From the NCBI RefSeq assembly GCF_026241135.1, contig NZ_JAPFGA010000023.1:1-54668 (forward strand): a DNA stretch of 54,668 nucleotides, read 5' to 3'. The notes below the pieces were generated by a model, which worked only from the letters and a program-made list of their open reading frames with translations, was not told the origin of the DNA and searched no databases. This stretch comes from Galbibacter kalidii (GTDB taxonomy: Bacteria; Bacteroidota; Bacteroidia; Flavobacteriales; Flavobacteriaceae). Position numbers and translations under genes: made by a program. Shown in pieces: positions 4,481-26,249 of the stretch (position 1 is the first letter of the stretch; every line of letters begins with the position of its first letter).

Positions 4481-4488
4481 TAGTTTTG
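4481..4488 (+). promoter_or_regulatory. Candidate -7 promoter element TAGTTTTG for the HxlR gene
   Basis: The sequence fits the Bacteroidota -7 consensus TAnnTTTG. If used, transcription would start near 4495 and the ATG at 4506 would be the first usable start, which argues against the longer reading from 4413. The -33 element is weak. Confidence 0.4.
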
Positions 4489-4832: not shown

Positions 4833-4862
4833 AAACTGAAGGAAAACCAATAAACATTTATT

Positions 4863-5423: not shown

Positions 5424-5424
5424 G

Positions 5425-7106: not shown

Positions 7107-7443
7107 AACAACCTGCTTAATGAATGCCCCTCAAAGGATTATATTTTAGACCAATAATGTCCAAAATATTTTTTTGACGTAGGACTGTAGGACTTAAGAC
7201 TTAAGACTTATGATCTTCAACATCTAACACGTTGATATAATAATAAATATAAATCGTATGTCATACGTCTTGAAGTCATATGTCAGCGGTCTAAAAATTA
7301 AACCCATGCCATCTTGATATGCTGGAAGTATTTATAAAATATGGGGTTGAGTGGTTTTTTCCAAAAGCGTTTAGGACGCTATTAATTTTAGAGTTAAAAA
7401 ATGTACTTTTGGCTATAGAACTGATTTAAACTTTTTCTAATTT
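7107..7443. other. Non-coding stretch with short direct repeats
   Basis: Around 7183-7212 the string GACTTAA occurs repeatedly in direct orientation, and 7255-7290 holds related ATACGTC/CATATGTC words. The rest is AT-rich. No NrtR-type palindrome was found before the next gene, so that gene may be regulated differently from the rest of the NAD cassette. Confidence 0.4.
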
Positions 7444-9027
7444 ATGTACATTTTATTTCCGGGACGCCATCACTTACTCACTGCGTTTCAATTTGAATAC
7501 ATTAAAAATCTAATCAACACAGGTTTTAAAAATATAAAGAATGTAGAAGGCAATATTATTTCTGATAAACAGCCTATAGACGGAATTATTTTTGCTGTGA
7601 CTTCGGCTAATCATAGTGGCACTAAAAGAAACCCCATTCCATTTTACTTAAGGGCCATGATGGTACATGAATTTTGTAGTGAATTTGATGTGCCGTCATA
7701 TGTATACGGTATAGATGATGTGGGAATTTTGAACGATTTTGCATCTTATACTTTAAAACAGATCAAGCATCAAAGCGAATACAATATTAACCTGACTCCG
7801 GACAATACCTTTGTAGTCTGCTCAACTCCTGTTCTCCATATGTACCAAAAACTGGGGTTTACAATTTTACCCGCAGAGTTAATTGATATTAAGACATGGG
7901 AATATCAAACTAATTTACCTTGGGAAGTTGTAGATCAAATCGTTAATAATGACAACGGTTTGGATGATAAAAACCTTTCAGGAACAATACACCATTCCAG
8001 TCGTAAAATATGGACGACCTACTCATTATACCAAAAGGTAAGGAATATACTTTCCGATCCGATAATAGGGGATGATGGCGACATTACAGCATCCAGGGAT
8101 TACAACACGTATGTTAGGCAGATGGATGAAATTGCCGAAATTAAATACAAAGAAACCAGTCCCTACATTATTCCCGGAAGGGTAGGGGATATTGGTTGTG
8201 CGGTAGGGTCGTGGATCAAACAGGCCAGCGAGAACCCAAAACTCAGGGAAAGCGATTTTTATGGTATTGAAGTAGCCCGGCAATTATTCGATATATGTAA
8301 CCAACGAAAACACAATGGTGAATTTAGTAACCCTAACGTTTTCTTCTCACAAAAAAATGCGGTAAGCGATTTGGTTTTTGAAAAAGAATCCATGCATACT
8401 ATTCATACCTCTTCATTAACCCATGAAATAGAATCGTATGGGGATCGGGAGGATCTTTTAAGATTTATCAAAAACAGATGTGAAGAGCTTATATCTGGTG
8501 GTGTATGGATCAACAGGGATGTTATTGGACCGGAAAACGGGGAACGGGAAGTTCTTATGCTGTTAAATAAAGAAGATGGGGAAAATGAAGACCCCTACAA
8601 AAAGTGCACAACAAAAGAAGCTTTCAAAGATTATCTGGACAGGATGTCCACTTTTACACGCTTTCTGCGGTTTGCTTCCGATTTTCGTAAAGAAGAACAT
8701 GACACGATATCTTATAGCATTAAAACATTCAATGATAAGGATTACATCAGTATAAAACTTAAGGATGCTACCGAGTTTATGCTTACAAAAGATTATACGG
8801 ATAATTGGTTGAGCGAAATGCATGAACGGTTTTGCTTTTGGAGTCTTGAAGATTGGAAAAAAGAATTGGATAAAGCAGGGTTTCAAGTTGATGAAAATAC
8901 CCGGGCATATACCAACCCATGGATTGAAGAGAATCGCTTTAAGAATAAGGTGCAATTATTTGATACTACATTAAGGCCCTTGGAATCCCCTTATACTAAT
9001 GCTTTGATTATAGCCAGAAAAGTTTAA
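7444..9027 (+). CDS. Nucleotidyltransferase-like / SAM-dependent methyltransferase fusion protein
   Basis: A 527-residue cytoplasmic protein of two parts. Residues 1-150 look like a cytidylyl/NMN-adenylyltransferase fold: L-F-P-G-R-H-H-L-L-T-A at residue 4 sits where G-R-F-x-P-x-H is usual, and N-P-I-P-F-Y-L-R-A-M-M-V resembles the N-P-x-x-x-x-x-R segment of NMNAT-type enzymes. The normal HxGH motif is altered. Residues 235-370 form a class I methyltransferase domain with motif I G-D-I-G-C-A-V-G-S-W (about 247-256) and an acidic motif II (Y-G-I-E-V-A). It precedes nrtR, nadV and a PRPP-synthetase homologue, so a role in making or modifying NAD+ or its precursors is inferred. What it methylates is unknown. 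Confidence 0.65.
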   Translation: MYILFPGRHHLLTAFQFEYIKNLINTGFKNIKNVEGNIISDKQPIDGIIFAVTSANHSGTKRNPIPFYLRAMMVHEFCSEFDVPSYVYGIDDVGILNDFASYTLKQIKHQSEYNINLTPDNTFVVCSTPVLHMYQKLGFTILPAELIDIKTWEYQTNLPWEVVDQIVNNDNGLDDKNLSGTIHHSSRKIWTTYSLYQKVRNILSDPIIGDDGDITASRDYNTYVRQMDEIAEIKYKETSPYIIPGRVGDIGCAVGSWIKQASENPKLRESDFYGIEVARQLFDICNQRKHNGEFSNPNVFFSQKNAVSDLVFEKESMHTIHTSSLTHEIESYGDREDLLRFIKNRCEELISGGVWINRDVIGPENGEREVLMLLNKEDGENEDPYKKCTTKEAFKDYLDRMSTFTRFLRFASDFRKEEHDTISYSIKTFNDKDYISIKLKDATEFMLTKDYTDNWLSEMHERFCFWSLEDWKKELDKAGFQVDENTRAYTNPWIEENRFKNKVQLFDTTLRPLESPYTNALIIARKV

Positions 9028-9050
9028 TCTAAAGAATGACACTATGCAAT

Positions 9051-9148
9051 GTCATGCTGAGCCTGCCTACCGTCAGGCAGGCCTGTCAAAGCACAGTCGA
9101 AGTGTAATGTAATGAAAATCAAATTGTCAGTCTGAGCCTGTCGAAGAC
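9051..9148. repeat. Dispersed intergenic repeat, two degenerate copies
   Basis: GTCAtGCTGAGCCTG and, 75 bp later, GTCAGTCTGAGCCTGTCGAAGA are copies of a repeat word common between genes of marine Flavobacteriia. The first copy is split by a CCTGCCTaccGTCAGGCAGG hairpin. They lie between two genes of the NAD cassette and suggest separate transcription units. Confidence 0.5.
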
Positions 9149-9202
9149 AATTTGTGTAAAAACAGTCTTTTTAGACACCCTCTAGTCGGTTTCAAGAATT
9201 TT

Positions 9203-9223
9203 TTTGTGTATAAAATACATAAA
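9203..9223. promoter_or_regulatory. NrtR-type operator 1 (autoregulatory)
   Basis: TTTGTGT, seven bases, ACATAAA: a 21-bp palindrome of the same design as two copies before nadV. It ends 16 bp before the ATG of the Nudix regulator, where a bound protein would block transcription of its own gene. Confidence 0.7.
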
Positions 9224-9239
9224 TCACTATTTTTACAAA

Positions 9240-9923
9240 ATGGGAGCAATTCAAAATATAAAAGTATCTGTAGATGCCGTGGTTTTTGGTTATACTCCTG
9301 ATGAAGGACTATCTGTATTACTCATAAAACGAAAAAGCACACCATTTAAAAACTCATGGGCCTTACCCGGTGGGTTGGTGAAAGATAATGAAAACCTGGA
9401 GGAAGCGGTGCAGCGTGAACTTAAGGAAGAAACCAATGTTTCTATTAATTATTTAGAGCAATTGTACACTTTTGGAGATGTGGCAAGGGATCCCCGAAAC
9501 AGGGTTGTATCCGTAGCTTATTACGGGCTTGTAAAACCAGATGCTTTTGAGATCAATGCCAGTACAGATGCTTCTGACGTTGCTTGGTATAATGTAAAAG
9601 AAATACCAGATATCGCCTTTGACCATCACAAAATCTTAAACACTGCCATTAATCGATTAAAAGGTAAAATAACATATGAGCCCATTGGTTTTGAATTGCT
9701 TGATAAAAAATTTCCTTTTTCAGATTTAGAAAAACTATACACTACACTTTTAGGAAGGGAAATTGATAGACGAAACTTCAGAAAGAAAATTGTTAGATTA
9801 AATGTATTAGATGAGCTGGATGAAAAAGTATCAAAAGGCTCCGGCAGACCAGCAAATCTCTTTCAATTTAATCAAAAACGATACTTCCAGCTTAAGAAAG
9901 AGGGTATCGTTTTTGAAATATAA
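9240..9923 (+). CDS. nrtR: NrtR-type Nudix transcriptional regulator of NAD metabolism
   Basis: Starting at ATG 9240 this is 227 residues. The TTG start further upstream lies inside an operator and is rejected. Residues 45-67 are a Nudix box (G-x5-E-x7-R-E-L-K-E-E-T) whose late Gly is replaced by Asn. The C-terminal third is a winged-helix domain (R-R-N-F-R-K-K-I through S-G-R-P-A-N-L-F-Q). This architecture defines NrtR and related Nudix regulators, which sense ADP-ribose or a similar ligand and repress NAD salvage genes. Three matching palindromes flank this gene and precede nadV, which supports the role directly. Catalytic hydrolysis may be lost, as in many NrtR proteins. Confidence 0.88.
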   Translation: MGAIQNIKVSVDAVVFGYTPDEGLSVLLIKRKSTPFKNSWALPGGLVKDNENLEEAVQRELKEETNVSINYLEQLYTFGDVARDPRNRVVSVAYYGLVKPDAFEINASTDASDVAWYNVKEIPDIAFDHHKILNTAINRLKGKITYEPIGFELLDKKFPFSDLEKLYTTLLGREIDRRNFRKKIVRLNVLDELDEKVSKGSGRPANLFQFNQKRYFQLKKEGIVFEI

Positions 9924-9940
9924 TCCCATTAATTTTATTT

Positions 9941-9961
9941 TTTGCGTAAAAATAACACAAA
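9941..9961. promoter_or_regulatory. NrtR-type operator 2, upstream of nadV
   Basis: TTTGCGT, seven bases, ACACAAA. It is identical in both arms to operator 3, and its centre is 52 bp from that of operator 3, close to five helical turns. Confidence 0.75.
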
Positions 9962-9965
9962 AACC

Positions 9966-9996
9966 TTGTTCGGTATTAAATTGCTACATATATTTG
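9966..9996 (+). promoter_or_regulatory. Candidate promoter of the nadV operon
   Basis: TATATTTG at 9989-9996 matches the Bacteroidota -7 box TAnnTTTG, and TTG at 9966-9968 lies 20 bp upstream as a -33 element. Operator 3 overlaps the -7 box and operator 2 ends just before the -33, so a regulator bound at both would cover the promoter. Confidence 0.6.
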
Positions 9997-10013
9997 CGTT
10001 ATAATTACACAAA
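9993..10013. promoter_or_regulatory. NrtR-type operator 3, overlapping the nadV promoter
   Basis: TTTGCGT, seven bases, ACACAAA. It shares the TTTG of the -7 box and ends 17 bp before the nadV ATG, which predicts repression. Confidence 0.75.
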
Positions 10014-10030
10014 TTAAAACTACCATTATT

Positions 10031-11485
10031 ATGAACGGATTATTATTAACAGACGGATATAAAACCGGACACCAACAGCAGTATCCAAAGAACACAGAAG
10101 AAGTATATTCTAATTGGACTCCCAGAAGTAATAAATATGCACCTAAAGGATGTGATAAAGTTGTTTCTTTTGGTCAGCAATATGTGATTAAATGGCTGGA
10201 TGACTATTTTAAAGAGCATTTCTTTTCAAAAAATAAAGAACAAGTCTGTAAAGAAATCAAAGAAGAGCTTTCCCTATATCTTGGAGGAGAATACAATGTT
10301 TCACATTATGAACAATTACATGATTTACAATACCTCCCGATAAAAGTTAAATCATTACCGGAAGGAGTAGAGGTGCCGATCAGAACGCCAATGGTCACCG
10401 TTGTAAATACCCATAAAGATTTTTATTGGGTTACAAATTTTTTGGAGACCATATTGTCTACCATGTTATGGCAACCTATGACATCTGCTACAATAGCAAT
10501 GCTGTATAAGCGTATATTTAAAAAATGGGCACTGTTAACCGATAGCGAAAATGTAGGCTTTATTGATTTTCAAGGACACGATTTTTCAATGCGGGGGATG
10601 GGAGGCCTACAGAGCGCTTTATCTTCTGGAATGGGACACGCAAGCGTTTTTTTAGGTTCAGATACACTTCCCGTTATTAGTGGGTTGCGTAAATATTATA
10701 ATGCTAAAGAATTTGTAGTGGGTTCTGTAAACGCAACAGAACACTCTGTAATGTGTGCAGGAACTAAAGATGATGAAATTGGTACGTTTAGGGAACTGAT
10801 GAAAATGTATCCAACAGGAATATTATCAGTTGTAAGTGATACTTGGGATTTATGGAAAGTACTTACGGTTTACCTGCCAAAATTAAAAGAAGAAGTTTTA
10901 TCCAGGGATGGGAAGCTGGTCATCCGCCCGGATAGTGGAGACCCTGTAGATATTATCTGTGGGGAAACCAGAACCCTTGGCGGTAAAACACCTAAAGATA
11001 AAGGAGTAGTGGAGCTACTTTGGGATATTTTCGGAGGAACTATAAATGAACAAGGATATAAAGTTTTAGACACTCATATTGGCGCCATTTATGGCGATAG
11101 TATAACTACTGAAAGAGCGGAAAATATTTGTCAACGTTTAAGCGATAAAGGCTTTGCAACTACCAATGTGGTTCTGGGTATAGGTTCGTATACATATCAA
11201 TTCAACACAAGGGATACTTTTGGGTTTGCAATGAAAGCAACTTCAGTTGTAGTAAATGGAGAACGAAGGGAAATTTTTAAAGATCCGATTACAGATAATG
11301 GTGTAAAAAAATCTGCTAAGGGATTAATAAAAGTAGATTTAATTGGCGATGAATATGTTCTTATAGACCAAGTAAGTCCTGAACAAGAAAATGAAGGGGC
11401 TTTACAAGTGATTTATGAAAACGGTCAATTTGTTAACCAGGTTAGCTTACAAGAAATAAGAAATAGAATCAATGGATGTATTTAA
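10031..11485 (+). CDS. nadV: Nicotinamide phosphoribosyltransferase (NAMPT/NadV family)
   Basis: The 484-residue protein has the full NAMPT length and signature. It converts nicotinamide and PRPP to NMN, the first step of one-step NAD+ salvage. Visible landmarks are the N-terminal D-G-Y-K-T-G-H-x-x-Q-Y-P, R-G-M-G-G-L-Q-S-A after residue 185, the catalytic histidine in A-T-E-H-S-V-M (His238), and the phosphate-binding I-R-P-D-S-G-D-P near residue 298. It heads a translationally coupled operon, overlapping the HAD gene by 14 bp. Two NrtR-type palindromes precede it. Close homologues (Namat) in phage NAD+ reconstitution systems use an ADP-ribose pyrophosphate donor instead of PRPP. The sequence alone does not settle which donor this one uses. 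Confidence 0.92.
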   Translation: MNGLLLTDGYKTGHQQQYPKNTEEVYSNWTPRSNKYAPKGCDKVVSFGQQYVIKWLDDYFKEHFFSKNKEQVCKEIKEELSLYLGGEYNVSHYEQLHDLQYLPIKVKSLPEGVEVPIRTPMVTVVNTHKDFYWVTNFLETILSTMLWQPMTSATIAMLYKRIFKKWALLTDSENVGFIDFQGHDFSMRGMGGLQSALSSGMGHASVFLGSDTLPVISGLRKYYNAKEFVVGSVNATEHSVMCAGTKDDEIGTFRELMKMYPTGILSVVSDTWDLWKVLTVYLPKLKEEVLSRDGKLVIRPDSGDPVDIICGETRTLGGKTPKDKGVVELLWDIFGGTINEQGYKVLDTHIGAIYGDSITTERAENICQRLSDKGFATTNVVLGIGSYTYQFNTRDTFGFAMKATSVVVNGERREIFKDPITDNGVKKSAKGLIKVDLIGDEYVLIDQVSPEQENEGALQVIYENGQFVNQVSLQEIRNRINGCI

Positions 11486-11861
11486 TTTTGATTTTTACAA
11501 AAGATTAAAAGAAGACTATCAAGAGCACAAAAGTCTTTTTGTGGCTTATGATTATGATAATACAGTTTTTGATTATCATAATCGAGGGATTAACTATGAC
11601 AGGATAATTGATTTATTACGCGTTTGCAAATCTCTCAATTTCACTTTAATACTATTTACTGGTAATGAAGGAGAAAAATTAGAAATTATAAAAGAAGATT
11701 TAAAAAGGCGGGGGATTCCTTTTGATTTAATCAATGAGAACCCCTTAATGAAGACAAGAAAGCCATATTATAATATACTATTAGATGATAGGGCAGGCCT
11801 AAAAGAATCGTATCAAAATTTAAAAAAACTTACAGATGAAATATCAAATAAAGAAATTTAA
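11472..11861 (+). CDS. Small HAD-superfamily phosphatase-like protein
   Basis: A 129-residue protein with a compact HAD core and no large cap domain. Motif I is D-Y-D-N-T (Asp27 and Asp29), motif II is the Thr in L-F-T-G-N-E, and the Lys and acidic motifs are in R-K-P-Y-Y-N-I-L-L-D-D-R-A-G. It lies between nadV and the PRPP-synthetase homologue and overlaps both, so the three products should be made together. A role in removing a phosphate from a nucleotide or sugar phosphate in NAD salvage is likely, but the substrate is not visible. Confidence 0.78.
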   Translation: MDVFNFDFYKRLKEDYQEHKSLFVAYDYDNTVFDYHNRGINYDRIIDLLRVCKSLNFTLILFTGNEGEKLEIIKEDLKRRGIPFDLINENPLMKTRKPYYNILLDDRAGLKESYQNLKKLTDEISNKEI

Positions 11862-12594
11862 AGACGGACAAGTTTCTGCAAAAATAACAGAACCGGGAGA
11901 TTTACATATTAAGATTAGAGGGAATACTTATGAAGATTTATTTAGAATAGCAGCAGTAAAAGAAGCCTGGGATGCAGAAAACTCCACAAAAAAGAATACC
12001 GTTGCTATTTTAACCATCTATTGTTTAATCGGGCAACGTTCTGATAGACGTTTTAATGCTCAAGAATCATTTGACTTAAAAGTAATAGCGAATTTTATCA
12101 ACTCCTTAAATTTTGATAAAGTAGAAATATTACATCCGCATAGTCCAATAACTTTAGCTTTAATCAATAATGCTGTTGAATTAAAGAATTTTGAATATGT
12201 AAAAAAAGCCTATAACGAAATTGGCACCCCGACTTTAATAAGTCCAGATGCAGGAGCTTATAAAACGACACACGAAATTGCAGAAAAATTAGATGCGGAT
12301 TTAGTACCATCAAATAAAATAAGGGTAAACGGAGCTCCGCTTATCAAAATACAAGGTGATGTAAAAAATAAAAAGTGTTTAATTGTAGACGATTTAGCAG
12401 ATGGTGGTAGAACTTTTAAATTTCTTGCTGAAGAATTAAAAAAGCAAGGAGCTGAAAAAGTGTTTTTATATGTGACGCATGCACAATTTAATTATGGTTT
12501 TGATGAATTAAAAGAAACCATCAACCATATATACTGTACAAACAGTTATAAAAATATTGATGACGATTACGTTACACAATATGAGGTGGTATAA
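11836..12594 (+). CDS. Ribose-phosphate pyrophosphokinase (PRPP synthetase) homologue, short
   Basis: At 252 residues it is shorter than the usual 310-320 of PRPP synthetases, but family features are present: an R-S-D-R-R-F segment near the ATP-binding flexible region, S-P-D-A-G-A-Y-K-T, and a PRTase-type loop L-I-V-D-D-L-A-D-G-G-R-T (Asp185-Asp186). The canonical D-D-x-x-D-T-G-G-T is altered to D-D-L-A-D-G-G-R-T. It overlaps the HAD gene by 26 bp. The simple reading is local PRPP supply for NadV. The alternative is an Adps-like enzyme that pyrophosphorylates ADP-ribose, as in phage NARS1 systems, whose two genes have this same pairing. Confidence 0.78.
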   Translation: MKYQIKKFKDGQVSAKITEPGDLHIKIRGNTYEDLFRIAAVKEAWDAENSTKKNTVAILTIYCLIGQRSDRRFNAQESFDLKVIANFINSLNFDKVEILHPHSPITLALINNAVELKNFEYVKKAYNEIGTPTLISPDAGAYKTTHEIAEKLDADLVPSNKIRVNGAPLIKIQGDVKNKKCLIVDDLADGGRTFKFLAEELKKQGAEKVFLYVTHAQFNYGFDELKETINHIYCTNSYKNIDDDYVTQYEVV

Positions 12595-12635
12595 AACAGG
12601 CATAAAAAGCTTGAACAGGAATCTGCTTCATCAAT

Positions 12636-12786
12636 GACGTTATGCTGAGGAGCGCAGCGACGTGAGCATCCGTCACAAATTATCTAACTGCCAAAATCAA
12701 CAGGTCCCTAATTAAAATTTGAACAATGTTTAAACGGATGCTTACGTCGTCCCGGCTATGCCGGTGACTCCTCAGCATGACGTTTA
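12636..12786. repeat. Long imperfect inverted repeat of intergenic-repeat words
   Basis: The left arm (12636-12673) and right arm (12734-12786) are inverted copies: ACGTyATGCTGAGGAG on the outside and GACGTrAGCATCCGT on the inside, about 15 of 16 bases matching in each block. The right arm has an extra CCGGC/GCCGG hairpin. The 60-bp centre is AT-rich with no gene. It could fold as a large cruciform or RNA hairpin downstream of the NAD operon, or be a small non-autonomous element. Confidence 0.65.
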
Positions 12787-12789
12787 CAA

Positions 12790-13080
12790 ACCCGACAGAT
12801 ACGTTCCATAACGTATCGGGAGACGTTCCGAACCCCGACGGATACGTCTACTAACGTATCCGGATAGGTTCAGAACCCCGATAGATACGTCCAATAGCGT
12901 ATCTGGACACGTTGATAACCCCGACGGATACGTCTACTAACGTATCTGGATAGGTTCAGAACCCCGATAGATACGTTCAATAGCGTATCTGGATACGTTA
13001 ATAACCACGGCAGATACGTCCTATAACGTATCCGGATAGGTCCCCCAACGTATCTGGATACGTCTCATAACGTATCGGGA
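12790..13080. repeat. Tandem array of 43-bp palindromic units
   Basis: Units begin CCCCGA or similar at 12790, 12833, 12876, 12919, 12962 and 13005, spaced exactly 43 bp, followed by one irregular unit. Each contains GATACGT, six bases, ACGTATC, a 7-bp perfect or near-perfect hairpin; where one arm changes, a G-T pair often remains. Units alternate between two subtypes (TCTACTA and TYCAATA loops), which suggests growth by duplication of pairs. There is no spacer diversity and no cas gene, so it is not CRISPR. Confidence 0.85.
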
Positions 13081-13083
13081 CAT

Positions 13084-13116
13084 AAAAAAAGCCTTGAAAC
13101 CGAAGGAATCAAGGCT
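13084..13116 (-). terminator. Rho-independent terminator of the 156-residue protein gene
   Basis: AGCCTTGA (13090-13097) pairs with TCAAGGCT (13109-13116) and is followed on the minus strand by seven T. It lies 26 bp beyond the minus-strand stop codon. Confidence 0.8.
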
Positions 13117-13141
13117 GATGAATGCGGAAATCCATTCTGAC

Positions 13142-13612
13142 TTATGACGCTCGTTTGATTTCTTTGCTGGATTTGCCAAAGAATTGCTTTAATTCCGCAG
13201 CTTTTTTGGTAAAACCACTTTCCTTAGCATTCTTTTTATACTGCGTGTATCCATAATCCACCAAAGCATCTTGGTAATTGTCATAGTCGTGCAGGGTCTT
13301 TGTGCTCTCCAACTGATAAACGATGTTGCCGAGCGATTGTATTTGCTTCTCCAAAAACAGACGTGTTTCAAAATCCTTCTCAAAATCCTCCCAATCAATA
13401 TCAGGAGCACTTAGATCCGGGTTTTCTGAATGGAAATCATGCACTTTGTTGACAAAGAGTTTATTGATTTCGTTGATAGACCCATATTTTTGTCGGTCTT
13501 CTTCGTTAAGCGCCGTGACTTTGCTTTTTATAATAGACTCTATATTCTTAATAGCGTCTACTAATTCCTTCTTGTCGGCTTCAGTGAATTTGCTTGTAAT
13601 CAAGTTTTTCAT
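13142..13612 (-). CDS. Hypothetical helical protein, function unknown
   Basis: This 156-residue protein has no signal peptide or membrane segment. It is rich in charged residues and predicted mostly helical, with E-A-D-K-K-E-L-V-D-A-I-K-N-I-E near the start and a basic tail (K-K-A-A-E-L-K-Q-F-F-G-K-S-S-K-E-I-K-R). I do not recognise the family. It has its own terminator, and its AT-rich upstream region is shared with the divergent methyltransferase gene. It may be an ordinary chromosomal gene marking the left edge of the AT-rich island. Confidence 0.75.
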   Translation of the reverse strand: MKNLITSKFTEADKKELVDAIKNIESIIKSKVTALNEEDRQKYGSINEINKLFVNKVHDFHSENPDLSAPDIDWEDFEKDFETRLFLEKQIQSLGNIVYQLESTKTLHDYDNYQDALVDYGYTQYKKNAKESGFTKKAAELKQFFGKSSKEIKRAS

Positions 13613-13961
13613 ACTATAAAGTTTTATTTAAAGCCATTAATTTATAGGTTATAATGGTTTTATCATAGTTTTAAAGCAATTTTTAACAAAACATTATAGA
13701 AATTAAAATTTTATAGTGGTTTTTTACTGTATGTTTTTTGTGTAAAACAATGTAGAAGATATGTGTGTATAAGGGGTGATGGTAGGAGGGGAGGGGGATG
13801 AAAATAAAACTAAATTATTGGTTTAAAAATTATTAATAAATTTATAACTTACGAACTAATGTTCTTATAAGCTATTATTACATTTGAAAACTGGTATTCA
13901 CACTTCTTGAATGCTATTTAACATGTTTAGTAGAAAATAAATTATTTTGTAAAATTAGTTA
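13613..13961. other. AT-rich divergent promoter region with a G-rich tract
   Basis: This 349-bp gap lies between divergent genes. It is very AT-rich except for a purine G-run around 13777-13800. TACATTTG near 13878-13886 fits the -7 consensus, but no good -33 partner was seen. No RNA gene was recognised. Confidence 0.4.
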
Positions 13962-15188
13962 ATGAATACAATTATAAAACAAAAAATAGCCAAACAGAAT
14001 TTTTTAGATTTAAAAACTGAAATCCCACATATTATAAAATATATGGGTTCAAAAAGAGAGTTAATTGAGTTTTTATCAAATTCAATTAATGAAATATATG
14101 AAGGAGAAGAAATATGTGATTTATTTGCTGGTACATCTGTTTTAAGTGGAGCTTTAGGGCATAATGTTAATATGTATTCAAATGATATCCAGGAATATTC
14201 AGCTGTTTTTGCTCATACCTACCTTGGAAATTATAACTGGAATGATTTTCCAAACCTCATAGATGATATCATAGAAATTGCTCAAAATCATGTGGACAAT
14301 GTTAAAGAATTATATCCTAGATTAGTTTTTGAATATTATGAAGATATCACTTTAAATGAATTTAATGCTTTAGAGCTGCTTCAGCAAGAATTAATATCTC
14401 AAAATTTTGAGGACATTGAGCATCATTTATTTATAAAAAATTATTCAGGGACTTATTGGTCATTTGAGCAATGTCTTTGGATAGATGCATTGAGAATTGC
14501 TGCTGAAGAATATCTAAATACACCTGTTTATTATCCTATATTATCTAGTATAATGTTTGCAATGGCATATAGTGCTCAAAGTACAGGGCATTATGCTCAA
14601 TATAGAGATGCAAATAATATTGCCTCTATGGATGATATTATTGTTTATCGTAATAAAAACATATTGCCTTATTTCCAAAAGAAACTAAATGAATTAATTG
14701 AATCTACAGGAAAAAATACATTTAGTCATCAAGTAACATCACTTGATTATATTGATTGTTTAGATAGTATTCCAAATGGTACCCTAGTATATGCAGATCC
14801 TCCATATACTTTTGTGCATTATTCAAGATTTTACCATGCATTGGAAACTCTTGTAAGATACGATTATCCTGAAGTTTTATTTAAAGGCAGATATCGTACA
14901 GATAGACATCAATCTCCCTTTTGTAAAAAAACAACTGTAGTCAATGCATTTGGAGAAATGTTTAAAAAGATAAGAGAAAAGAGATCAAAATTACTTTTGA
15001 GTTATAGTAATACTGGCATGATAAGTTTAGATGATATTTTATCTATTGCAAACAACGCTTTGGGAAATGATTATAATATATATACTAAAGAAGTAGATTA
15101 CAAACATAGTACTATGGGAAGATCAGAAGATAAATCTCGGGAAGTTAAAGAATATTTAATAATTGCAACACCACCAATAAATGAGTAA
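13962..15188 (+). CDS. D12-class DNA N6-adenine methyltransferase
   Basis: A 408-residue Dam-like enzyme. The N-terminal I-K-Y-M-G-S-K-R-E-L is the SAM-binding entry typical of D12-class enzymes, D-L-F-A-G-T-S-V-L (from residue 53) is motif I, and D-P-P-Y (279-282) is the catalytic motif IV. It should transfer methyl from SAM to N6 of adenine in a specific site; the target sequence cannot be read. It is longer than Dam (about 280), with an inserted helical part at 100-200 that may hold the target-recognition domain. It overlaps the DGQHR gene by 8 bp, so the two are translationally coupled. The DNA is clearly more AT-rich than the surrounding core genes. No restriction endonuclease is recognisable nearby. 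Confidence 0.88.
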   Translation: MNTIIKQKIAKQNFLDLKTEIPHIIKYMGSKRELIEFLSNSINEIYEGEEICDLFAGTSVLSGALGHNVNMYSNDIQEYSAVFAHTYLGNYNWNDFPNLIDDIIEIAQNHVDNVKELYPRLVFEYYEDITLNEFNALELLQQELISQNFEDIEHHLFIKNYSGTYWSFEQCLWIDALRIAAEEYLNTPVYYPILSSIMFAMAYSAQSTGHYAQYRDANNIASMDDIIVYRNKNILPYFQKKLNELIESTGKNTFSHQVTSLDYIDCLDSIPNGTLVYADPPYTFVHYSRFYHALETLVRYDYPEVLFKGRYRTDRHQSPFCKKTTVVNAFGEMFKKIREKRSKLLLSYSNTGMISLDDILSIANNALGNDYNIYTKEVDYKHSTMGRSEDKSREVKEYLIIATPPINE

Positions 15189-17367
15189 AACTTTAAACTT
15201 AGAAAAGTTAAAAACTTCTTGGACTAAATATGATGCAGTAAAAGTTATCAATATTATTGGTAATGACGAATTAGAATCCTATTTAAAGGGAGAACAATCT
15301 ATAAATGATTCTGTATTAAAGTCTTATCTTGGAATTAAAAATTTAAGTGATGACTTACCCAATTATTGGATAGAGGTATTGAGAAATTATCCTAATCACA
15401 GAAAGCTATTCACCTTATTAGCTGGTATATTCACACATCATAAAAACATTGCCGATTTTGCAAATAAGTACTCTGGTGAGAATATGGAAGGCATATTTTT
15501 AATAGAAGAAAATGATAAACATCAAACTAATCTTAGAAGTGCTTTAGTAGAAGGAGGAGCTTCTTCAAATAGCTTTAGACGTAAGCCAGAAGTACCATAT
15601 AGATTTGACAGGATATTTGCAGTTGAAAATATCGGAGCTCATTTCAAATCTTTATTAGAAGAGAGACTTAAGCGAATAGGTCATAAGGAAAAAGAAATTC
15701 AAGATAACTTTTTTAAACTTGCATATTCATATGATTTTCACAAAGCGCTTAGCTTAAATAAATCTCAGTTTAAAAAATGGCTTGAAGGAAAATCTATTAC
15801 TCAAATAAAAAAAATTAATTATAGCTTAAAAAATTTCATAGAAGAATATTCAAAAGTTGATTTAATAAAGATTAATCAATGGTTAGCAAATTGGGATTCG
15901 GTTAATTATGATGAACCAATGAGAAGTAAACCAGAGAAGTATTTTTATTTCTTCAAAATGGATATTAGGTTATTAAAAAGATTATCTGATGTACATAGAC
16001 GAAAATCATCTAAGTCAAAATCTAAAAACACTAATATTCAAAGAGAATTAAAGGAAGATAGAACTCAAGAAATTCATCGTTATGTAGAAAGTGGTTTTCC
16101 TTTGTCAACCTTAAGCAAAAAAGATAGAGAGTTAGAAAGCAATGATGTTCTAAAGATGCCAGGATTTCTTCCAACAGCAATACTCATAAATATTCTAGGT
16201 CCAAACGAAAAAAGAGGAAATTCAGAAATACAGTCTGAAGACTTAATTTCAATAAAAGAAGAAGGTAAAAAAAACTTCCTGGATCTTCCTCAGACAGTTT
16301 TTGATGAAAATTGGGATCCTGAATTAAAACCTATAGAAGTAATAGATGGACAACATCGCTTATGGGCTTTTGATGAAACTGAGGAAATAGAAGGAGATTA
16401 TGAAGTCCCAGTAATAGCATATTATAATTTAGATAGAGCATGGCAGGCTTATCTTTTTTATGTGATAAATATTAAGCCAAAAAAAATTAATACTAGTTTA
16501 GGTTATGATTTATATCCATTGCTTCGTACACAAGAATGGCTAGAGAATTCCAAAGATGGATTGTCCGTTTATCGAGAAACAAGAGCTCAAGAATTAGTTG
16601 AAGCACTTTGGTCTTATAATGAAAGCCCATGGCATAGAAGAATAAGCATGCTCGGTAATGACACAAGTAATATATCGCAAAATGCTTTTGTACGTGCGCT
16701 TTCAAGTACATATTTAAAGAAATCTATTAGAAAGAAGGTTAGTGGCTTATTTGCAGATGTCTTATATAATAAAAATCATGAGGAGATCAAATGGGTTCGC
16801 CCACAGCAAGCTGCGTTTTTAATTTTAATATGGGATGAAATATCAAGAGCAGTTGACAATGCAGATAATATAGAGTGGATTAAAAACCTTGAGAAAGAAC
16901 CTTATCAATTAACATTATTTGAACGAGAATTAAAACTAAGTAAAGCTTTTGTTACAAAGAATTCTAATTTATCTCGAGATCAAGGAGTTACGGGTATTTC
17001 TATGTTTTCTAATGATTTTTTCTATGTCCTAGCTAATGAGTCGGATATTAATTTTAATGATTTAGAATGGAATGAAGAAATTGATGAAAGACAAATTGAA
17101 ACAGAAAGTATTGATTTAGCAATATCTGAATTCAAAAACCATTCGTTATATACATACATACAATATTTTGCGCAAGAAATTGTTCGGTTTGATTGGAGAA
17201 CTTCAAATGCTCCATTTGATGACGAAAATAAAAGAGAAATACAAAAAAAATATCGTGGCAGTGGTGGATATCGCGATGTATGGAGGGATCTTTTAAAGCA
17301 ATTTGTATCCTCTAATAATGAGAAAATTAAAAAATATGCAATAATCCTTAATGAAATTTCAAAATAA
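15181..17367 (+). CDS. Large DGQHR-domain protein (DndB-like fold)
   Basis: A 728-residue protein whose central V-I-D-G-Q-H-R-L-W-A-F (389-393 for DGQHR) defines the DGQHR family. This ParB/sulfiredoxin-like fold is seen in DndB, the regulator of DNA phosphorothioation, and in other proteins of DNA-modification loci. Residues 1-300 are a long charged helical region; the part after 430 is also helical and unassigned. It starts inside the end of the methyltransferase gene and ends 8 bp before the next gene, making a tight three-gene operon. No dndA, C, D or E is present, so this is not a Dnd locus. It may recognise modified DNA or a nucleotide ligand; that is inference. Confidence 0.78.
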   Translation: MSKTLNLEKLKTSWTKYDAVKVINIIGNDELESYLKGEQSINDSVLKSYLGIKNLSDDLPNYWIEVLRNYPNHRKLFTLLAGIFTHHKNIADFANKYSGENMEGIFLIEENDKHQTNLRSALVEGGASSNSFRRKPEVPYRFDRIFAVENIGAHFKSLLEERLKRIGHKEKEIQDNFFKLAYSYDFHKALSLNKSQFKKWLEGKSITQIKKINYSLKNFIEEYSKVDLIKINQWLANWDSVNYDEPMRSKPEKYFYFFKMDIRLLKRLSDVHRRKSSKSKSKNTNIQRELKEDRTQEIHRYVESGFPLSTLSKKDRELESNDVLKMPGFLPTAILINILGPNEKRGNSEIQSEDLISIKEEGKKNFLDLPQTVFDENWDPELKPIEVIDGQHRLWAFDETEEIEGDYEVPVIAYYNLDRAWQAYLFYVINIKPKKINTSLGYDLYPLLRTQEWLENSKDGLSVYRETRAQELVEALWSYNESPWHRRISMLGNDTSNISQNAFVRALSSTYLKKSIRKKVSGLFADVLYNKNHEEIKWVRPQQAAFLILIWDEISRAVDNADNIEWIKNLEKEPYQLTLFERELKLSKAFVTKNSNLSRDQGVTGISMFSNDFFYVLANESDINFNDLEWNEEIDERQIETESIDLAISEFKNHSLYTYIQYFAQEIVRFDWRTSNAPFDDENKREIQKKYRGSGGYRDVWRDLLKQFVSSNNEKIKKYAIILNEISK

Positions 17368-17375
17368 CCATCTGA

Positions 17376-18734
17376 ATGAAGCTAAGTATATTTATACGAA
17401 ACTCGTCTAGAGATATGGTTGTTGAAGGAGCAAAGCATATTAAGAGATATTATTTGCCACAAGAAAAATTAATTTCTAAAAACAATCCTCTAGAAAAAAA
17501 CATTAAATCGGTTAAGAAACATGCCGATGCTACAAATTCGTATTCCATCAAACAAAATGATATAAATTCATTTATGGCTGCTTCATCAATGTCACATATG
17601 ATGGATGGATGGAGTTATTTGTCTTGTTCATTAGACGCACTCTTAAGAGGAGATCAAGCCGCAAGTATTCATTTAGCTTATTATGCAGAATTAAGAAGTG
17701 CAATGTCAATCTTAGCATCAGAAGGAATAGGAGTATTCAATAATAAACATATTGGTGTTTTTCCACGAAATACAAATAAAGAATTTCCTACAAATTATTA
17801 CAAGGGAAATCCACCGAACATTAAATATGTGCAACCTCCAAGTGCTACACACAAATTTGTATGGGAAGCAATGCAAAAGTGGACAGATTCTGCTTTTAGA
17901 CCTCATACTAATATTCTTGAAATTTTTAAAGTAAGAGGCCACAACTTTAAGCAATTAACAGAATTTTTCCATCCTCAGGCTACAATAATTTTAAATAATA
18001 AGATAATTAAAACTTGGCTTAAAGATTGGTGTTTTGATATTAAAGCTTATAAGGATGATCGTGAAAACAGAAATACTTCAAGTTATAGACCACAGAGAAT
18101 CAAGAATTTTAACGATCAATTAGATTATGAAGAAATTATTAGTAATATCAGTGACTTCTGGAATGTATTAAGCCCTTCACAGGGAAATAATTTTGATCTA
18201 TTAGACATATATTTACTACGAAAATTATATGAAAAATTATACGAATATATAAATCCAAGTGAGCCCATTAGAGAATTAATTGAAAATGCATTTGATGGTT
18301 TAGGTCTTCACGATACTCCATTAATATCATTCCTAAGTGGAGAAGCACCTTATGAAGATGATCATTTAATTTTTAATAAAGCATCTGAATTTGAAATTTC
18401 GCCAATATCAATAATTGCTAGGTCAATTTTATTACTTAGAATATCTTCCGGTAATACTTCTCAAATATTTAAAAATGCAGATATAAGCCATTCAGAATTA
18501 AGCTTTGTTTGGGAAAATTATGGAGTTGATAACGGATTCTGGCAAGCAGGTTCAATGCCAATAAATTTTGAAGATTTGTGGAGCGATGTTGAAGCTCATA
18601 TTAATGATATTAAAGATAGGATTGATTTAGTACCTAAACAAAACGATTTAGCATCTATATTAAAAGATAATGCATATGATATTTTGTTTTTTAAGCAAAT
18701 AAATCGGGCTTGTTTATGGGGAGTTGCAATTTGA
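17376..18734 (+). CDS. Unrecognised third protein of the methyltransferase-DGQHR cassette
   Basis: A 452-residue protein without signal peptide or membrane helix. The most family-like stretch is M-M-D-G-W-S-Y-L-S-C-S-L-D-A, G-D-Q-A-A-S-I-H-L-A-Y-Y-A-E-L-R-S-A-M, then E-G-I-G-V-F at about 70-130. This is a helical segment with conserved-looking His, Tyr, Glu and Arg that resembles HEPN-type helical bundles only in a general way. No nuclease motif (PD-ExK, HNH, GIY-YIG) was found. It is the last gene of the operon, 8 bp after the DGQHR gene, and equally AT-rich. By position it is the candidate effector or target-recognition partner. Function is unknown. Confidence 0.7.
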   Translation: MKLSIFIRNSSRDMVVEGAKHIKRYYLPQEKLISKNNPLEKNIKSVKKHADATNSYSIKQNDINSFMAASSMSHMMDGWSYLSCSLDALLRGDQAASIHLAYYAELRSAMSILASEGIGVFNNKHIGVFPRNTNKEFPTNYYKGNPPNIKYVQPPSATHKFVWEAMQKWTDSAFRPHTNILEIFKVRGHNFKQLTEFFHPQATIILNNKIIKTWLKDWCFDIKAYKDDRENRNTSSYRPQRIKNFNDQLDYEEIISNISDFWNVLSPSQGNNFDLLDIYLLRKLYEKLYEYINPSEPIRELIENAFDGLGLHDTPLISFLSGEAPYEDDHLIFNKASEFEISPISIIARSILLLRISSGNTSQIFKNADISHSELSFVWENYGVDNGFWQAGSMPINFEDLWSDVEAHINDIKDRIDLVPKQNDLASILKDNAYDILFFKQINRACLWGVAI

Positions 18735-18813
18735 TTTTATAAAAACAATCGAGCGCTTGGTAGCGGCTATTTTTATATATCGACAAATTATACTTACGAA
18801 TATATAACAACCA

Positions 18814-18869
18814 AGTCGTAAAACGGCTGTTACATAAATACTGTCGATATAGACCTAAAGGCGCCATAT
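18814..18869. repeat. 56-bp direct repeat, left copy
   Basis: It matches 26314-26369 at 54 of 56 positions, exactly 7,500 bp away. It starts with a small hairpin (AGTCGT-AAA-ACGGCT) and ends with the palindrome GGCGCC followed by ATAT. It lies just downstream of the three-gene cassette in a 214-bp gap. Confidence 0.85.
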
Positions 18870-18948
18870 CTATATATTATGGGACATTAAATTAAAGCTA
18901 TTTCATAGCAACAAAAGTTTTGTTTCTGAAGATTGTATCAAAAGTATT

Positions 18949-19647
18949 TTAAAACCACTTCGCTTTGATGTCTTTGTATTTCGTTCTTCCAATAGGGATA
19001 CGTTCTCCATTTTTTAGCTCGGCTATATATTTGCTTCCGGATTCTACTATAATTTCCTTTATCTCAGACACCTTCACTAAGTATGATTTATGGATGCGTT
19101 CAAAAGAAAACGATAATAATTGTTCCAGTTTTTCGAGTGACTTATCATGTAGTTCTTTTTTTCCATTTGATAAAAAGAGTTCAGTATAAGCACCAGCTCC
19201 TTTTATGTAAAGTAAATCTTCAATTGGTATTAGCTGTACTTTGTGTCTCTTTTTTACAGCTAAAATTTTAACTGTATTTGTTTCTATTTTTTCTTTTGTG
19301 ATAGCTCGATGTAAGGCTTGCTCCAACCGGTCTCTGTTAAAAGGTTTAGGGACAAAATCTAAAACTCCATATTCAAAAGCGGTAATTGCCTGATCTTTAT
19401 AGGCGGAAATAATTATCGTATGAAACGATTTAGAAACTGCGGTGGTAAGCAGGTCAAAGCCACTGTCACCGTTAAGGTTTAAATCCAGGAGGACAAGATC
19501 CAATGAGTTATTTTCAATAAACCTCAATGCTTCATGAAATGTATTAGCATACTTTAACGATTGTAAGCTATCGCCAAAAATATCACGGGTCATTCGTTCG
19601 ATTCTTTTGGCGATTCTTGATTCATCTTCAACAATTAAAATGTTCAT
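18949..19647 (-). CDS. LytTR-type response regulator
   Basis: A 232-residue protein with an N-terminal receiver domain (phospho-acceptor Asp55 in L-V-L-L-D-L-N-L-N-G, Lys in V-P-K-P-F) and a C-terminal LytTR DNA-binding domain from about residue 130 (L-L-Y-I-K-G-A-G-A-Y-T-E-L, R-I-H-K-S-Y-L-V). These beta-strand DNA-binding regulators act downstream of LytS-type kinases. The start codon is four bases after the stop of the kinase gene, so the two form one operon. Targets probably include nearby surface proteins, but no repeated binding site was identified. Confidence 0.92.
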   Translation of the reverse strand: MNILIVEDESRIAKRIERMTRDIFGDSLQSLKYANTFHEALRFIENNSLDLVLLDLNLNGDSGFDLLTTAVSKSFHTIIISAYKDQAITAFEYGVLDFVPKPFNRDRLEQALHRAITKEKIETNTVKILAVKKRHKVQLIPIEDLLYIKGAGAYTELFLSNGKKELHDKSLEKLEQLLSFSFERIHKSYLVKVSEIKEIIVESGSKYIAELKNGERIPIGRTKYKDIKAKWF

Positions 19648-19651
19648 CTCC

Positions 19652-21337
19652 TTAAGAATATATTTTTATGGTATTTTTCCAACCGTGATTTACGGGTTCT
19701 GAAGTAAAATCCCATTGCTCATGATAACTCTCTGTTAGTCGAGCCTTTACGTATTTTAGTCCCGTACCATCTTCTCTATTAGTTGTTGCTTGTCTTCCAC
19801 GAGTCGCAAACGTTAAAAATGTATAGCACTTGTAATTGCTATTCGATTCAAAAATAAGCTTAAATTTAATACTGTTATCCTCCAGAGGCAAGCTGTGCGT
19901 AATTCCGTTTTCCAATAACGTATGAAGAATTCCAGGCGGTATTTTTTGCTCAATATCTATACCTTCTTCTTGCCAAGAATAGTTGATCTCTTTCCGGTAC
20001 TCCATAATCTCAAGATGTGTACGGCAAAGTGCTATTTCCTGAGCAATAGGGATCAATGTTTTATTTTCTATCTGATTAAAAAGATCGAATTCTCTAGCTA
20101 AAGCCTCTATAAACAAAACACCTTTTTTAGGAGTTTCTTCTATCCAATCTATTAATGAAGTCAGGGTATTCATTAGAAAATGGGGCTGAATATTTTTCTT
20201 CAATAATTCAAGGCGTAGGCGAGTGGATTGGACCAGGGAGTTTTCGTATGCCAAGCGCTGAGCTTTGATGTTAAGTGATAACAGATACAACATGCCTAAC
20301 AGAATAAGCCCTAAACCAGTATACAAACTAATGACAAAACCAGAGGCGAGAAAAATCACCATTGACAAAAGTAACGTCACAAGAACGAGCCGCGCACCCC
20401 TTACATTTTTATAAGCCCCGTACGATACTACGCCAAAGGAAAAACACCACATACTCAATACCATACTGACCGCTTTGAAATCGAAAGCATGATGTTTTAC
20501 AAGGAAAATAAAAATAAGTACTCCTGCGTATAGAATTAGTAACAATCCCCGCCTTGAATATGGAAACTGCATGGAGAAGTAGAAAGGAATCAAAAATGAA
20601 ATGCCCAACAAAAGCGAGCTAATAATTTGTAATCTTATGACATGTAGACTGTAATGTATGGGTAAGTAATCTTTGCTAAATACTGTCAATACAAGAGCAA
20701 AAACGAGAAAACAGCAAACACTAAAAATGAGCGTGGGATATTCGTTCTTGTTATTTAGAAATAGAAAAAGAAAATAAAATGAGATGATAAGAAAAGCTCC
20801 GGCAAAAATGTGCATATAGGAAGTTTCGATGAGCCGGTCGGTTAATAGATCGTCATAATAATCTACGTCTAAGCTCCATATTCCTGTATGATCCGGGAAA
20901 TAATAAAGACTCGATCGTATGGCCAATAGATGTTCCCCCTCTTCCGTCAGATGAGTAGGAATGCTAAAAGTAGCCCACAATTTACCTTCAGGAGGAAGCA
21001 TTGCTTCTTGTCCCGGGTTTCCATTTTTTCCAATCAAAACCCCATCCCAATAAACCTCGTACTCTCCATAGACTTCTAACCGAAGACCATATAACTTTAA
21101 GGGGTCTGGGGTCTTTAGAATATCGACCTTCGTTCTAGACCAAAAAATCTGCCCATCAGGAACTAATTTTATCCTTTCTTTCCAATTCTTATCATTCCAG
21201 TTTTTTGTGGCCCATTCTTGTTGATCACCTATTTGGAATAGGGTCTTATATTCTTTGAAAACAGGCTTTTGTGAGCAGGAGGTTACTGAGAATATCAAGC
21301 ATATTAAGAAGAAATTGTACAAAGATCTCAAGTTCAT
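19652..21337 (-). CDS. LytS/YehU-like sensor histidine kinase, lipoprotein N-terminus
   Basis: From ATG 21337 the product is 561 residues and begins with a lipoprotein signal (F-S-V-T-S-C, Cys21). Earlier in-frame starts at 21402 and 21559 would bury that signal, so I prefer this one. Residues 30-165 form a beta-rich sensor similar to the galactose-binding-like domains of 7TMR-DISM proteins. About seven membrane helices follow (175-355), then a His_kinase domain with I-Q-P-H-F-L-M-N-T-L (His386) and a HATPase with L-L-E-N-G-I-T-H and G-T-G-L-K-Y-V. The usual N-P-H-F-L-F-N is altered at two positions. It senses an extracytoplasmic signal and should phosphorylate the adjacent LytTR regulator. 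Confidence 0.85.
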   Translation of the reverse strand: MNLRSLYNFFLICLIFSVTSCSQKPVFKEYKTLFQIGDQQEWATKNWNDKNWKERIKLVPDGQIFWSRTKVDILKTPDPLKLYGLRLEVYGEYEVYWDGVLIGKNGNPGQEAMLPPEGKLWATFSIPTHLTEEGEHLLAIRSSLYYFPDHTGIWSLDVDYYDDLLTDRLIETSYMHIFAGAFLIISFYFLFLFLNNKNEYPTLIFSVCCFLVFALVLTVFSKDYLPIHYSLHVIRLQIISSLLLGISFLIPFYFSMQFPYSRRGLLLILYAGVLIFIFLVKHHAFDFKAVSMVLSMWCFSFGVVSYGAYKNVRGARLVLVTLLLSMVIFLASGFVISLYTGLGLILLGMLYLLSLNIKAQRLAYENSLVQSTRLRLELLKKNIQPHFLMNTLTSLIDWIEETPKKGVLFIEALAREFDLFNQIENKTLIPIAQEIALCRTHLEIMEYRKEINYSWQEEGIDIEQKIPPGILHTLLENGITHSLPLEDNSIKFKLIFESNSNYKCYTFLTFATRGRQATTNREDGTGLKYVKARLTESYHEQWDFTSEPVNHGWKNTIKIYS

Positions 21338-24560: not shown

Positions 24561-26249
24561 ATGAATAAAATTTACTACCTGCTATTTTTTTTAATGGTTT
24601 TTATTTCTTGTAGTAAGGACAAGGACAGTGAGGAAATTAACACCCCTGAAATAACTCCAAAAGTAGAGGGGAGGCAAGCATTTCAAATTGATTTTGCAGC
24701 TAACAACTCAAAAAGTCAATCCAACAAAACATCCGACAATCCCAAATCTGGGTTTGCATTAATTAGTATTATTGATACTAATGGTGACGCAGTTCTTACC
24801 AGGGAAAAAGTTGAAGTTTTTAAGCAAGATGATAAATATATAACGGATGAAATAATACTTACAGCAGGAACTTATAGCTTAACGGAGTTTATTTTAACTG
24901 ATGCTAATAATGTAGTGGTTGCTATGGTTCCCAAGGCTAATGCTCCTTTATCTAAGTTAACCCAAAATACATTACCATTTAGTTTTAATGTAAAAGAGGA
25001 AGAACTAGCTATTACATCTACAGAAAACATCAGTGCAGATGGTTATACTGCGGTAGATTTTGGGTATAAAAGTTTAGATTTAAGTTTCCCTGACACTACA
25101 GATTTCTTTAGCTTAATTGTTGATGAATCGACCTTAATTACCACAAAAACTATTGTTATTGAATCGATTACAAACTCAAGCTATGAAATTGATTGGGGAG
25201 ATGGAACTACGGATGAATATTTTTCTGATTTAAGTAATACTTTAGAAGAAAGTGAACAAAATCATACCTATGAAACAAAAGGTGTCTACACTATAAATAT
25301 AAGCGGTCCACTGGAAACCATTCAAGAATTAAATTTTTATAGTAATGATCAGGAAAATGATTATCAGAGTAATTTAATTTCCGCAGACATAAGTAAGTTA
25401 AGTTTACTCAATTCCTGTCTATTTTATGCTGGTAAACTCACAACATTAAACACCTCGAAGAATACTGCTTTAGAGCAATTAACATTAGGGTACAATCAAA
25501 TAACAAATTTAAATTTTGAAAATAATCTTGAATTAAAAAATGTAATCCTAAGATATAATCAGTTATCTAATGTTGATATTTCAAAAAATTCAAAGTTAGA
25601 ACTTTTATGGTTGACTGGAAATCAAATTTCGGGTATAAATCTTTTTAATAATACCAATTTGGAAGTATTGTCGATTCGAGAAAATCAACTCAACAATTTA
25701 GATCTGTCAAAAAATTTAAGTCTAAAAAGGGTTGACTTATCTGATAACAAATTAAAACAGATAGATGTTTCAAACAATACAAATTTAAAAGAAATAAACG
25801 TTGGAAGAAATTTACTTACAAACATTGATCTTTCAAAGAACACTAATCTCATACGTGTTGATTTATATGGAAATCAAATAGCAAACATTGATTTCTCTTT
25901 AAATACTAAATTAAAGAATATCTATATAGATGATAACCTATTGGAGGATATAGATTTGTCTAAAAACCCAGAAATTGATCGTTTAATTATTGAGAATAAT
26001 AATCTTACTGCATTAGATATTACAAATAATCCTAAAATATTTGATCTTGAGATTGGTGGAAACCAATTTAATAGCACCCAAATAGATGAGTTAATATCTC
26101 TTGTTTATGATCGAGCAGTTTTGAATTCAATTTTTGATGGTTATATCAACTTTAAAAACAATCCAGGTTCTGATGACATAGATGTCACTACTACTGAAAA
26201 AATAAATGATTTAATGACTACATATAATTGGTCTTTCAATAATAACTAA
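24561..26249 (+). CDS. Leucine-rich-repeat lipoprotein (internalin-like)
   Basis: A 562-residue lipoprotein (F-I-S-C, lipobox Cys near residue 18). Residues 20-180 are a beta-rich region resembling domains that precede PKD folds; about 195-255 includes Y-E-I-D-W-G-D-G-T-T and H-T-Y-E-T-K-G-V-Y, a PKD-like signature. From about 270 to 520 there are roughly a dozen leucine-rich repeats of 20-21 residues with L-x-x-N-Q-L/I-x-N-L/I-D-L-S-K-N. Such proteins mediate adhesion or ligand binding at the cell surface. It is the last gene before the right copy of the 56-bp repeat, and is AT-rich compared with the PD40 genes. Confidence 0.88.
   Translation: MNKIYYLLFFLMVFISCSKDKDSEEINTPEITPKVEGRQAFQIDFAANNSKSQSNKTSDNPKSGFALISIIDTNGDAVLTREKVEVFKQDDKYITDEIILTAGTYSLTEFILTDANNVVVAMVPKANAPLSKLTQNTLPFSFNVKEEELAITSTENISADGYTAVDFGYKSLDLSFPDTTDFFSLIVDESTLITTKTIVIESITNSSYEIDWGDGTTDEYFSDLSNTLEESEQNHTYETKGVYTINISGPLETIQELNFYSNDQENDYQSNLISADISKLSLLNSCLFYAGKLTTLNTSKNTALEQLTLGYNQITNLNFENNLELKNVILRYNQLSNVDISKNSKLELLWLTGNQISGINLFNNTNLEVLSIRENQLNNLDLSKNLSLKRVDLSDNKLKQIDVSNNTNLKEINVGRNLLTNIDLSKNTNLIRVDLYGNQIANIDFSLNTKLKNIYIDDNLLEDIDLSKNPEIDRLIIENNNLTALDITNNPKIFDLEIGGNQFNSTQIDELISLVYDRAVLNSIFDGYINFKNNPGSDDIDVTTTEKINDLMTTYNWSFNNN

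Follow-up and report, generated by a model that had tools for sequence, protein, structure and literature searches.

In the phosphorothioate-sensing proteins SspE and DndI, nucleoside triphosphate (NTP) hydrolysis depends on the arginine in the DGQQR motif and is stimulated by marked DNA, and in DndI full defence requires this arginine as well (PMC11662687, PMC13251355). A different arrangement appears in a survey of HEPN proteins from 2013, where a line of Table 1 places the MAE_28990 HEPN family in operons with ParB nuclease and DNA methylase genes, and where the Rx4-6H motif is located at the point where HEPN helix 3 ends, with an alternative histidine in some families (PMC3710099). Here, we describe a locus of three genes on a contig of Galbibacter kalidii (NZ_JAPFGA010000023.1; the whole stretch of 54,668 nucleotides is referred to as the window), which encodes a D12 methylase, a DGQHR protein and a protein without known family, hereafter X (Table 1). 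The trio is a conserved unit in which the DGQHR protein and X co-evolve, while the methylase is exchangeable.

A conserved trio with an exchangeable methylase

A first-pass annotation of the window, made from the sequence alone, had described three adjacent genes, overlapping or 8 bp apart, as an operon coding for a D12 methyltransferase, a DGQHR protein and a third protein without a recognised domain. The list of open reading frames (ORFs) agrees with this description, since the methylase and DGQHR genes overlap by 8 bp and a gap of 8 bp separates the DGQHR gene from that of X. The methylase assignment was also borne out, with a match to PF02086 in Pfam (E 8.8e-19, 68.7 bits against a cut-off of 22) and to the MTase_II models of PADLOC (best E 8.7e-34), and the two motifs noted at the outset, DLFAGT (motif I) and DPPY, are intact. 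DPPY was found in all 28 D12 enzymes of complete trios that were compared.

Searches for X gave 34 distinct loci, with each contig counted once: 15 genome loci, 13 viral contigs, two plasmids (one from Rhizobium and one from Zymomonas, the latter present as four records counted as one), three other genomes and the window. At 32 of these loci the gene immediately upstream of X is that of DGQHR; the L015 contig holds just the end of it. As for the two exceptions, at L031 (5992-11737) the DGQHR gene is broken into two ORFs and is separated from X by two ORFs that appear IS66-like by eye, and L062 is a 3.4-kb contig with an incomplete X, on which DGQHR was not seen. Because searches seeded by X could favour loci that bear X, a search of the viral collection seeded by DGQHR alone served as the fair test of the pairing. 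It gave at least nine loci, of which two were contigs known from the X searches, and both X and a D12 methylase were present in all nine. Among plasmids, DGQHR and X each led to the same five records, and among the neighbours of 22 loci no protein cluster besides the trio spanned more than three loci.

The usual layout is DGQHR-X-methylase, with the methylase on the opposite strand in L025 and L030. The layout methylase-DGQHR-X was observed in the window, in genome G241 (L034) and in genome G486 (L045 and L004, on two contigs that were read apart), and the X proteins of this group form one clade with a support of 100/100. We rejected the possibility that the genes are chance neighbours, as the trio recurs with overlapping genes across phyla, and also that the window is an oddity of its own, as all three Bacteroidota-type copies share the methylase-DGQHR-X order and the extension of the DGQHR protein described below. 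Taken together, these results indicate that the trio is a real conserved unit, present in distant genomes. It is apparently without a name, since it is named by none of the libraries used for its proteins (Pfam, NCBIfam, PHROGs and PADLOC-DB 2.0.0, a release of 2023 that may miss systems named later), and full-text literature searches, with supplementary tables and preprints outside their scope, brought up no article that describes the trio; the table line in PMC3710099 comes closest. Neither of the two outcomes that the first-pass annotation had named as refuting it, a lack of conservation in other genomes or an existing assignment to a named system, was therefore observed.

A D12 methylase was encoded in the same stretch at 31 of the 34 loci and, for L004, on the partner contig, which brings the number to 32. 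These enzymes are of three types: 21 are long and carry a GHTAQ motif, eight are short and Dam-like, and three are of the Bacteroidota type. Among the Dam-like enzymes, those of L023, L024, L025 and L030 scored above the Dam cut-off, that of L003 is annotated as Dam, and those of L021, L031 and L052 were assigned by length and sequence. Other marking genes accompany the pair at two further loci. At L049 an MT-A70 methylase (PF05063, E 8.9e-28) faces DGQHR-X, with no D12 match within the 9-kb stretch, and at L007, on a Pseudanabaena plasmid, dndC, dndD and dndE lie directly downstream of DGQHR-X, and no D12 match better than E 7e-4 occurs in the genome. The L007 copy is part of a composite block (1170-19313) that holds PbeA, PbeC, a Uma2-type nuclease, DGQHR-X, dndC, dndD, dndE and then, on the opposite strand, a second DGQHR gene; because PbeA, PbeC and this other DGQHR gene share the stretch, we regard the link between DGQHR-X and dndCDE as positional.

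The distance matrices of the 28 complete trios were strongly correlated for DGQHR and X (r=0.92, a value not reached in any of 1000 permutations), while the correlation of the methylase with DGQHR (r=0.325, reached in one of 1000 permutations) and with X (r=0.339, in none of 1000) was much lower. When the type of marking module was placed on the X tree of 33 rows, at least eight changes were required, compared with a minimum possible of four and a shuffled mean of 12.1 (none of 200 shufflings gave a number as low), and at least four changes of the Dam label were forced by well-supported branches. The number of changes is thus above the minimum yet below that of shuffled labels, indicating that swapping is real but that module types still cluster. 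Since DGQHR and X are far more closely correlated in their distances than either is with the methylase, and since methylase types have been swapped, DGQHR and X co-evolve as a stable core and the methylase is an exchangeable DNA-marking module.

We read the trio as a defence unit that distinguishes self from non-self DNA by marking and mark recognition, a reading to which we give about an even chance. The methylase, judging from its family, would place N6-methyladenine on the DNA of the cell itself, at a specific site. The DGQHR protein, a member of the ParB/Srx superfamily of the DndB kind, may bind DNA and test for the mark by nucleotide hydrolysis at the DGQHR motif, as a putative NTPase analogous to the DGQQR domains that read phosphorothioate in SspE and DndI. 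On meeting unmarked DNA it would signal to its partner X, the presumed effector, which, speculatively, would attack nucleic acid. The earlier suggestion of a modification-dependent defence system without a classical nuclease is therefore supported in part: the gene set fits it, its core is refined to DGQHR-X with the methylase exchangeable, and the defence outcome is what we infer.

A rather unlikely alternative is that DGQHR and X are accessory factors, such as regulators or loaders resembling DndB or DpdB, the unit as a whole being an epigenetic modification cassette with no restricting activity of its own. Such roles have been claimed for DndB as a negative transcriptional regulator of phosphorothioation and for DpdB as an ATPase that aids base insertion. 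The L007 copy might be seen in the same way, as its DGQHR-X lies just upstream of dndC, the place that dndB takes in dnd operons, although the second DGQHR gene nearby could be the DndB of that locus. Also against this alternative, D12, Dam and MT-A70 methylases work alone elsewhere and are not known to need an NTPase helper, and a pair that remains constant while the methylase is swapped is the opposite of a methylase-specific helper.

The DGQHR protein and its partner X

The features of the window locus are collected in Table 1.

Table 1. Features of the trio in the window
Feature	Positions	Strand	Remarks
D12-class N6-adenine DNA methyltransferase	13962-15188	+	408 aa; first gene in operon, Bacteroidota-type variant, DNA-marking module
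DGQHR (DndB/ParB-Srx-like) protein	15181-17367	+	728 aa; conserved part is residues ~226-728
N-terminal extension (~225 aa) of DGQHR protein	15181-15855	+	Bacteroidota form
Protein X, no known family; DGQHR core partner, candidate effector	17376-18734	+	452 aa

The DGQHR protein of the window scored above the cut-off of NCBIfam TIGR03187 (89.7 against 58.85 bits), and its pentapeptide, at residues 389-393 as first reported, is invariant in an alignment of 21 rows that includes the window. It did not reach the equivalog cut-offs of DpdB (35.4 against 300 bits) or of TIGR04172, DGQHR_dnd_1 (66.7 against 450). DpdB was its sole match in PADLOC-DB 2.0.0 (E 3.9e-8, residues 380-510), Pfam gave no HNH match, and the DGQHR protein of the G241 relative was barely above the cut-off of PF14072, DndB (32.6 against 29.1 bits). 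The N-terminal extension was 50% identical in L034 and 52% identical in L045, with no further blastp match at E<=1 among the ORFs of L001-L031 and the window and no match in Pfam. Neither the DGQHR profile nor that of X matched any PDB sequence.

For X, the matches in Pfam were all sub-threshold (best E 0.012) and there were none in PADLOC, NCBIfam or PHROGs, in agreement with the initial description of a protein without a recognised domain. Phage GenBank records gave no match to X with two different queries. The residues invariant in an alignment of 22 rows include H74, D77-G-W79, H99, Y102-Y103, R107, T158-H159, D221, R232-N233, S236-Y237 and R349, and the most divergent copies keep most of these, though not D77 and G78. 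This set of polar residues appears enzyme-like, which argues against the accessory role considered above. An AlphaFold model of X built with 20 sequences (predicted local distance difference test, pLDDT, 80.8; predicted template modelling score, pTM, 0.87) consisted mainly of helices, with a small beta insert, and in it the element R-N-x-x-S-Y ends the helix 222-237. Structure prediction, which the first-pass annotation had recommended, thus provided a model of the third protein with no clear match in the PDB; no HEPN fold was present among the 50 matches listed, in a comparison that is uninformative either way.

The position of R-N-x-x-S-Y at a helix end resembles that of the HEPN Rx4-6H motif, and X has other invariant histidines at 74, 99 and 159. 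Together with the MAE_28990 operon as entered in the table of the HEPN survey (PMC3710099), these features would suit an abortive-infection or toxin-antitoxin-like module, in which X would be a HEPN-like RNase toxin, restrained by DGQHR on methylated DNA and freed when a phage destroys or dilutes the mark. We consider this module improbable, since Tyr237 replaces the catalytic histidine in 22 of 22 rows and in 16 of 16 rows, X has no profile similarity to the MAE_28990 HEPN family, and no D12 match was found in any of the eight MAE_28990 neighbourhoods read; the structural comparison speaks for neither side. X as a demonstrated HEPN protein was rejected on the first of these grounds, and the idea that it is a nuclease, whether distantly HEPN-like or of a new kind, is a guess.

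MAE_28990 was over the cut-off in 23 of 117 genomes in a draw from the cyanobacterial phylum. In seven of the eight neighbourhoods (L077-L083) it adjoins an ORF of 362-377 amino acids with a DG-x-QR motif, and the profile of these ORFs has the DG-x-QR stretch in common with the DGQHR profile, at a low probability of 5.1%. The operons of the survey resemble the trio in placing a ParB-superfamily protein together with a DNA methylase and with one further protein, helical in both cases, but their ParB-like protein carries DG-x-QR where that of the trio carries DGQHR, and X is unlike their HEPN protein in profile. The MAE_28990 pairs are a parallel to the trio and not the same system.

Distribution and genomic setting

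Judged from record titles, the hosts comprise metagenome-assembled genomes of Bacteroidetes, KSB1, Planctomycetota, Chloroflexi and Binatia, as well as cyanobacterial, actinobacterial and several proteobacterial records. The trio is spread over at least seven phyla, and it is found on plasmids and in prophages. X was present in one of 99 genomes drawn from the relatives (the genome of the window itself), in two of 395 drawn from the phylum, and in 1/292, 2/385 and 2/369 genomes of three other groups, the centre genome being counted each time. Overall it is rare, with three occurrences in 1437 sampled genomes once the centre genome of each of the last four draws is excluded.

Phage genes were observed beside the trio in all seven contigs of the viral collection that were scanned, with flanks picked by eye. 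An integrase gene was the neighbour in L052, L058, L059 and L060, and tail genes in L054 and L056. In L057 the trio adjoins a portal gene of P2 type, beyond which lies a major head gene. P2-like phages have a validated defence hotspot bounded by the replication gene and the portal gene gpQ (PMC9122126), and the location of the L057 trio, judged from the portal side, is hotspot-like and in keeping with defence. A scan of 134 ORFs around 21 loci, up to four per side, found among the matches listed for the 25 commonest families at least three mad8, at least three ResIII and at least two PbeC/DndD model matches (a PbeC and a DndD are present in L007), and single matches to EcoR124_C, AIPR and RhuM were also listed; as the scan had no control regions, we claim no enrichment. 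Both the prophage position and the presence of some defence genes in the vicinity agree with a role in defence. On the Zymomonas plasmid (L003), the trio is followed at 18848-20571 by genes for a DUF4433 and a macro-domain protein, which are DarT/DarG-like, and the same plasmid carries type I restriction genes.

Although many copies are on prophages and plasmids, and D12 and Dam methylases are common anti-restriction genes of phages, a selfish addiction or anti-restriction module, in which the methylase would protect the mobile element and DGQHR-X would stabilise it with no anti-phage role, is very improbable, as a methylase that serves anti-restriction would have no need of two conserved partners, the copy linked to dndCDE does not fit, and the chromosomal copy L034 lies among ordinary-looking genes (no mobile genes were recognised by eye in a 19-kb ORF list).

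With respect to the window itself, the trio block has a G+C content of 29.4%, compared with 37.4% for the remainder, which upholds the description of an AT-rich block, though a gene at 24561-26249 is equally AT-rich (28.8%). The first-pass annotation had also reported that the block had no restriction nuclease or dnd partner and that repeats and a broken GIY-YIG gene surrounded it. As regards the first claim, no trio protein matched an endonuclease family in Pfam, PADLOC, NCBIfam or PHROGs, DndD (TIGR03185) had no match at E<=1e-3 in the genome of the window and none over the cut-off in G241, G486 and G866, and the list of ORFs on which the claim was checked covers ~8-25 kb of the 54.7-kb window. 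As regards the second, the repeats are present, whereas a broken GIY-YIG gene was not seen in a crude motif scan of 8-30 kb. The repeats are 43-nt tandem repeats at ~12780-13080, just upstream of the trio, where a stretch of 129 nt has five registered copies in steps of 43 nt, and an adjoining intergenic element at ~12635-12790 is palindromic-looking by eye. Between the repeats and the trio there is an ORF of 156 amino acids (13142-13612, minus strand) with no family above the cut-off in the four libraries. Further upstream, at 9204-12594, Nudix-like, nicotinamide/nicotinate phosphoribosyltransferase-like (both by eye) and phosphoribosyltransferase (PF00156) genes lie in a row that resembles a cluster for nicotinamide adenine dinucleotide salvage. 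On the other side, the response regulator at 18949-19647, the sole flanking gene used for an empty-site comparison, had no close orthologue in six congeners (best 37% identity).

Broader reading and comparison with described systems

The reading of the trio as a mark-recognition defence unit may be extended, tentatively and with less confidence than we place in the reading itself, to DGQHR-X as a general reader-effector pair run by various marks, namely N6-methyladenine set by D12 or MT-A70 enzymes and possibly phosphorothioate set by DndCDE. X would then represent a new effector class with an unseen fold, discrimination would reside in a small exchangeable module, and the two-protein sensor would have been kept across phyla. 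If the defence reading is true, an unnamed, rare but widespread mark-dependent immune unit is gained, with an effector family outside all the libraries used, and the role of DndB-like DGQHR proteins becomes testable with two proteins only, outside the context of the dnd machinery. Methylase swaps that occurred in nature offer ready-made pairs for asking how one sensor reads different marks.

Among described systems, SspABCD-SspE and IscS-DndBCDE-DndI, with their phosphorothioate-sensing DUF262-HNH proteins, are similar to the trio in that a member of the ParB superfamily, bearing a DGQ(Q/H)R motif, works with a DNA mark. They differ in the mark, which for the trio is expected to be N6-methyladenine, and in that the DGQHR protein has no HNH match and has a separate partner, X. 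With DndB, DpdB and the TIGR04172 family the trio has in common the DGQHR domain, and the window protein matches DpdB and TIGR04172 weakly; however, it lies far below their equivalog cut-offs, and the partners of the trio are X and a methylase rather than dnd or dpd genes, with the exception of L007. Finally, the trio is like type II restriction-modification in having a D12 methylase beside candidate restriction genes, and it departs from that arrangement in containing no recognised endonuclease and in keeping two partners conserved as the type of methylase changes.
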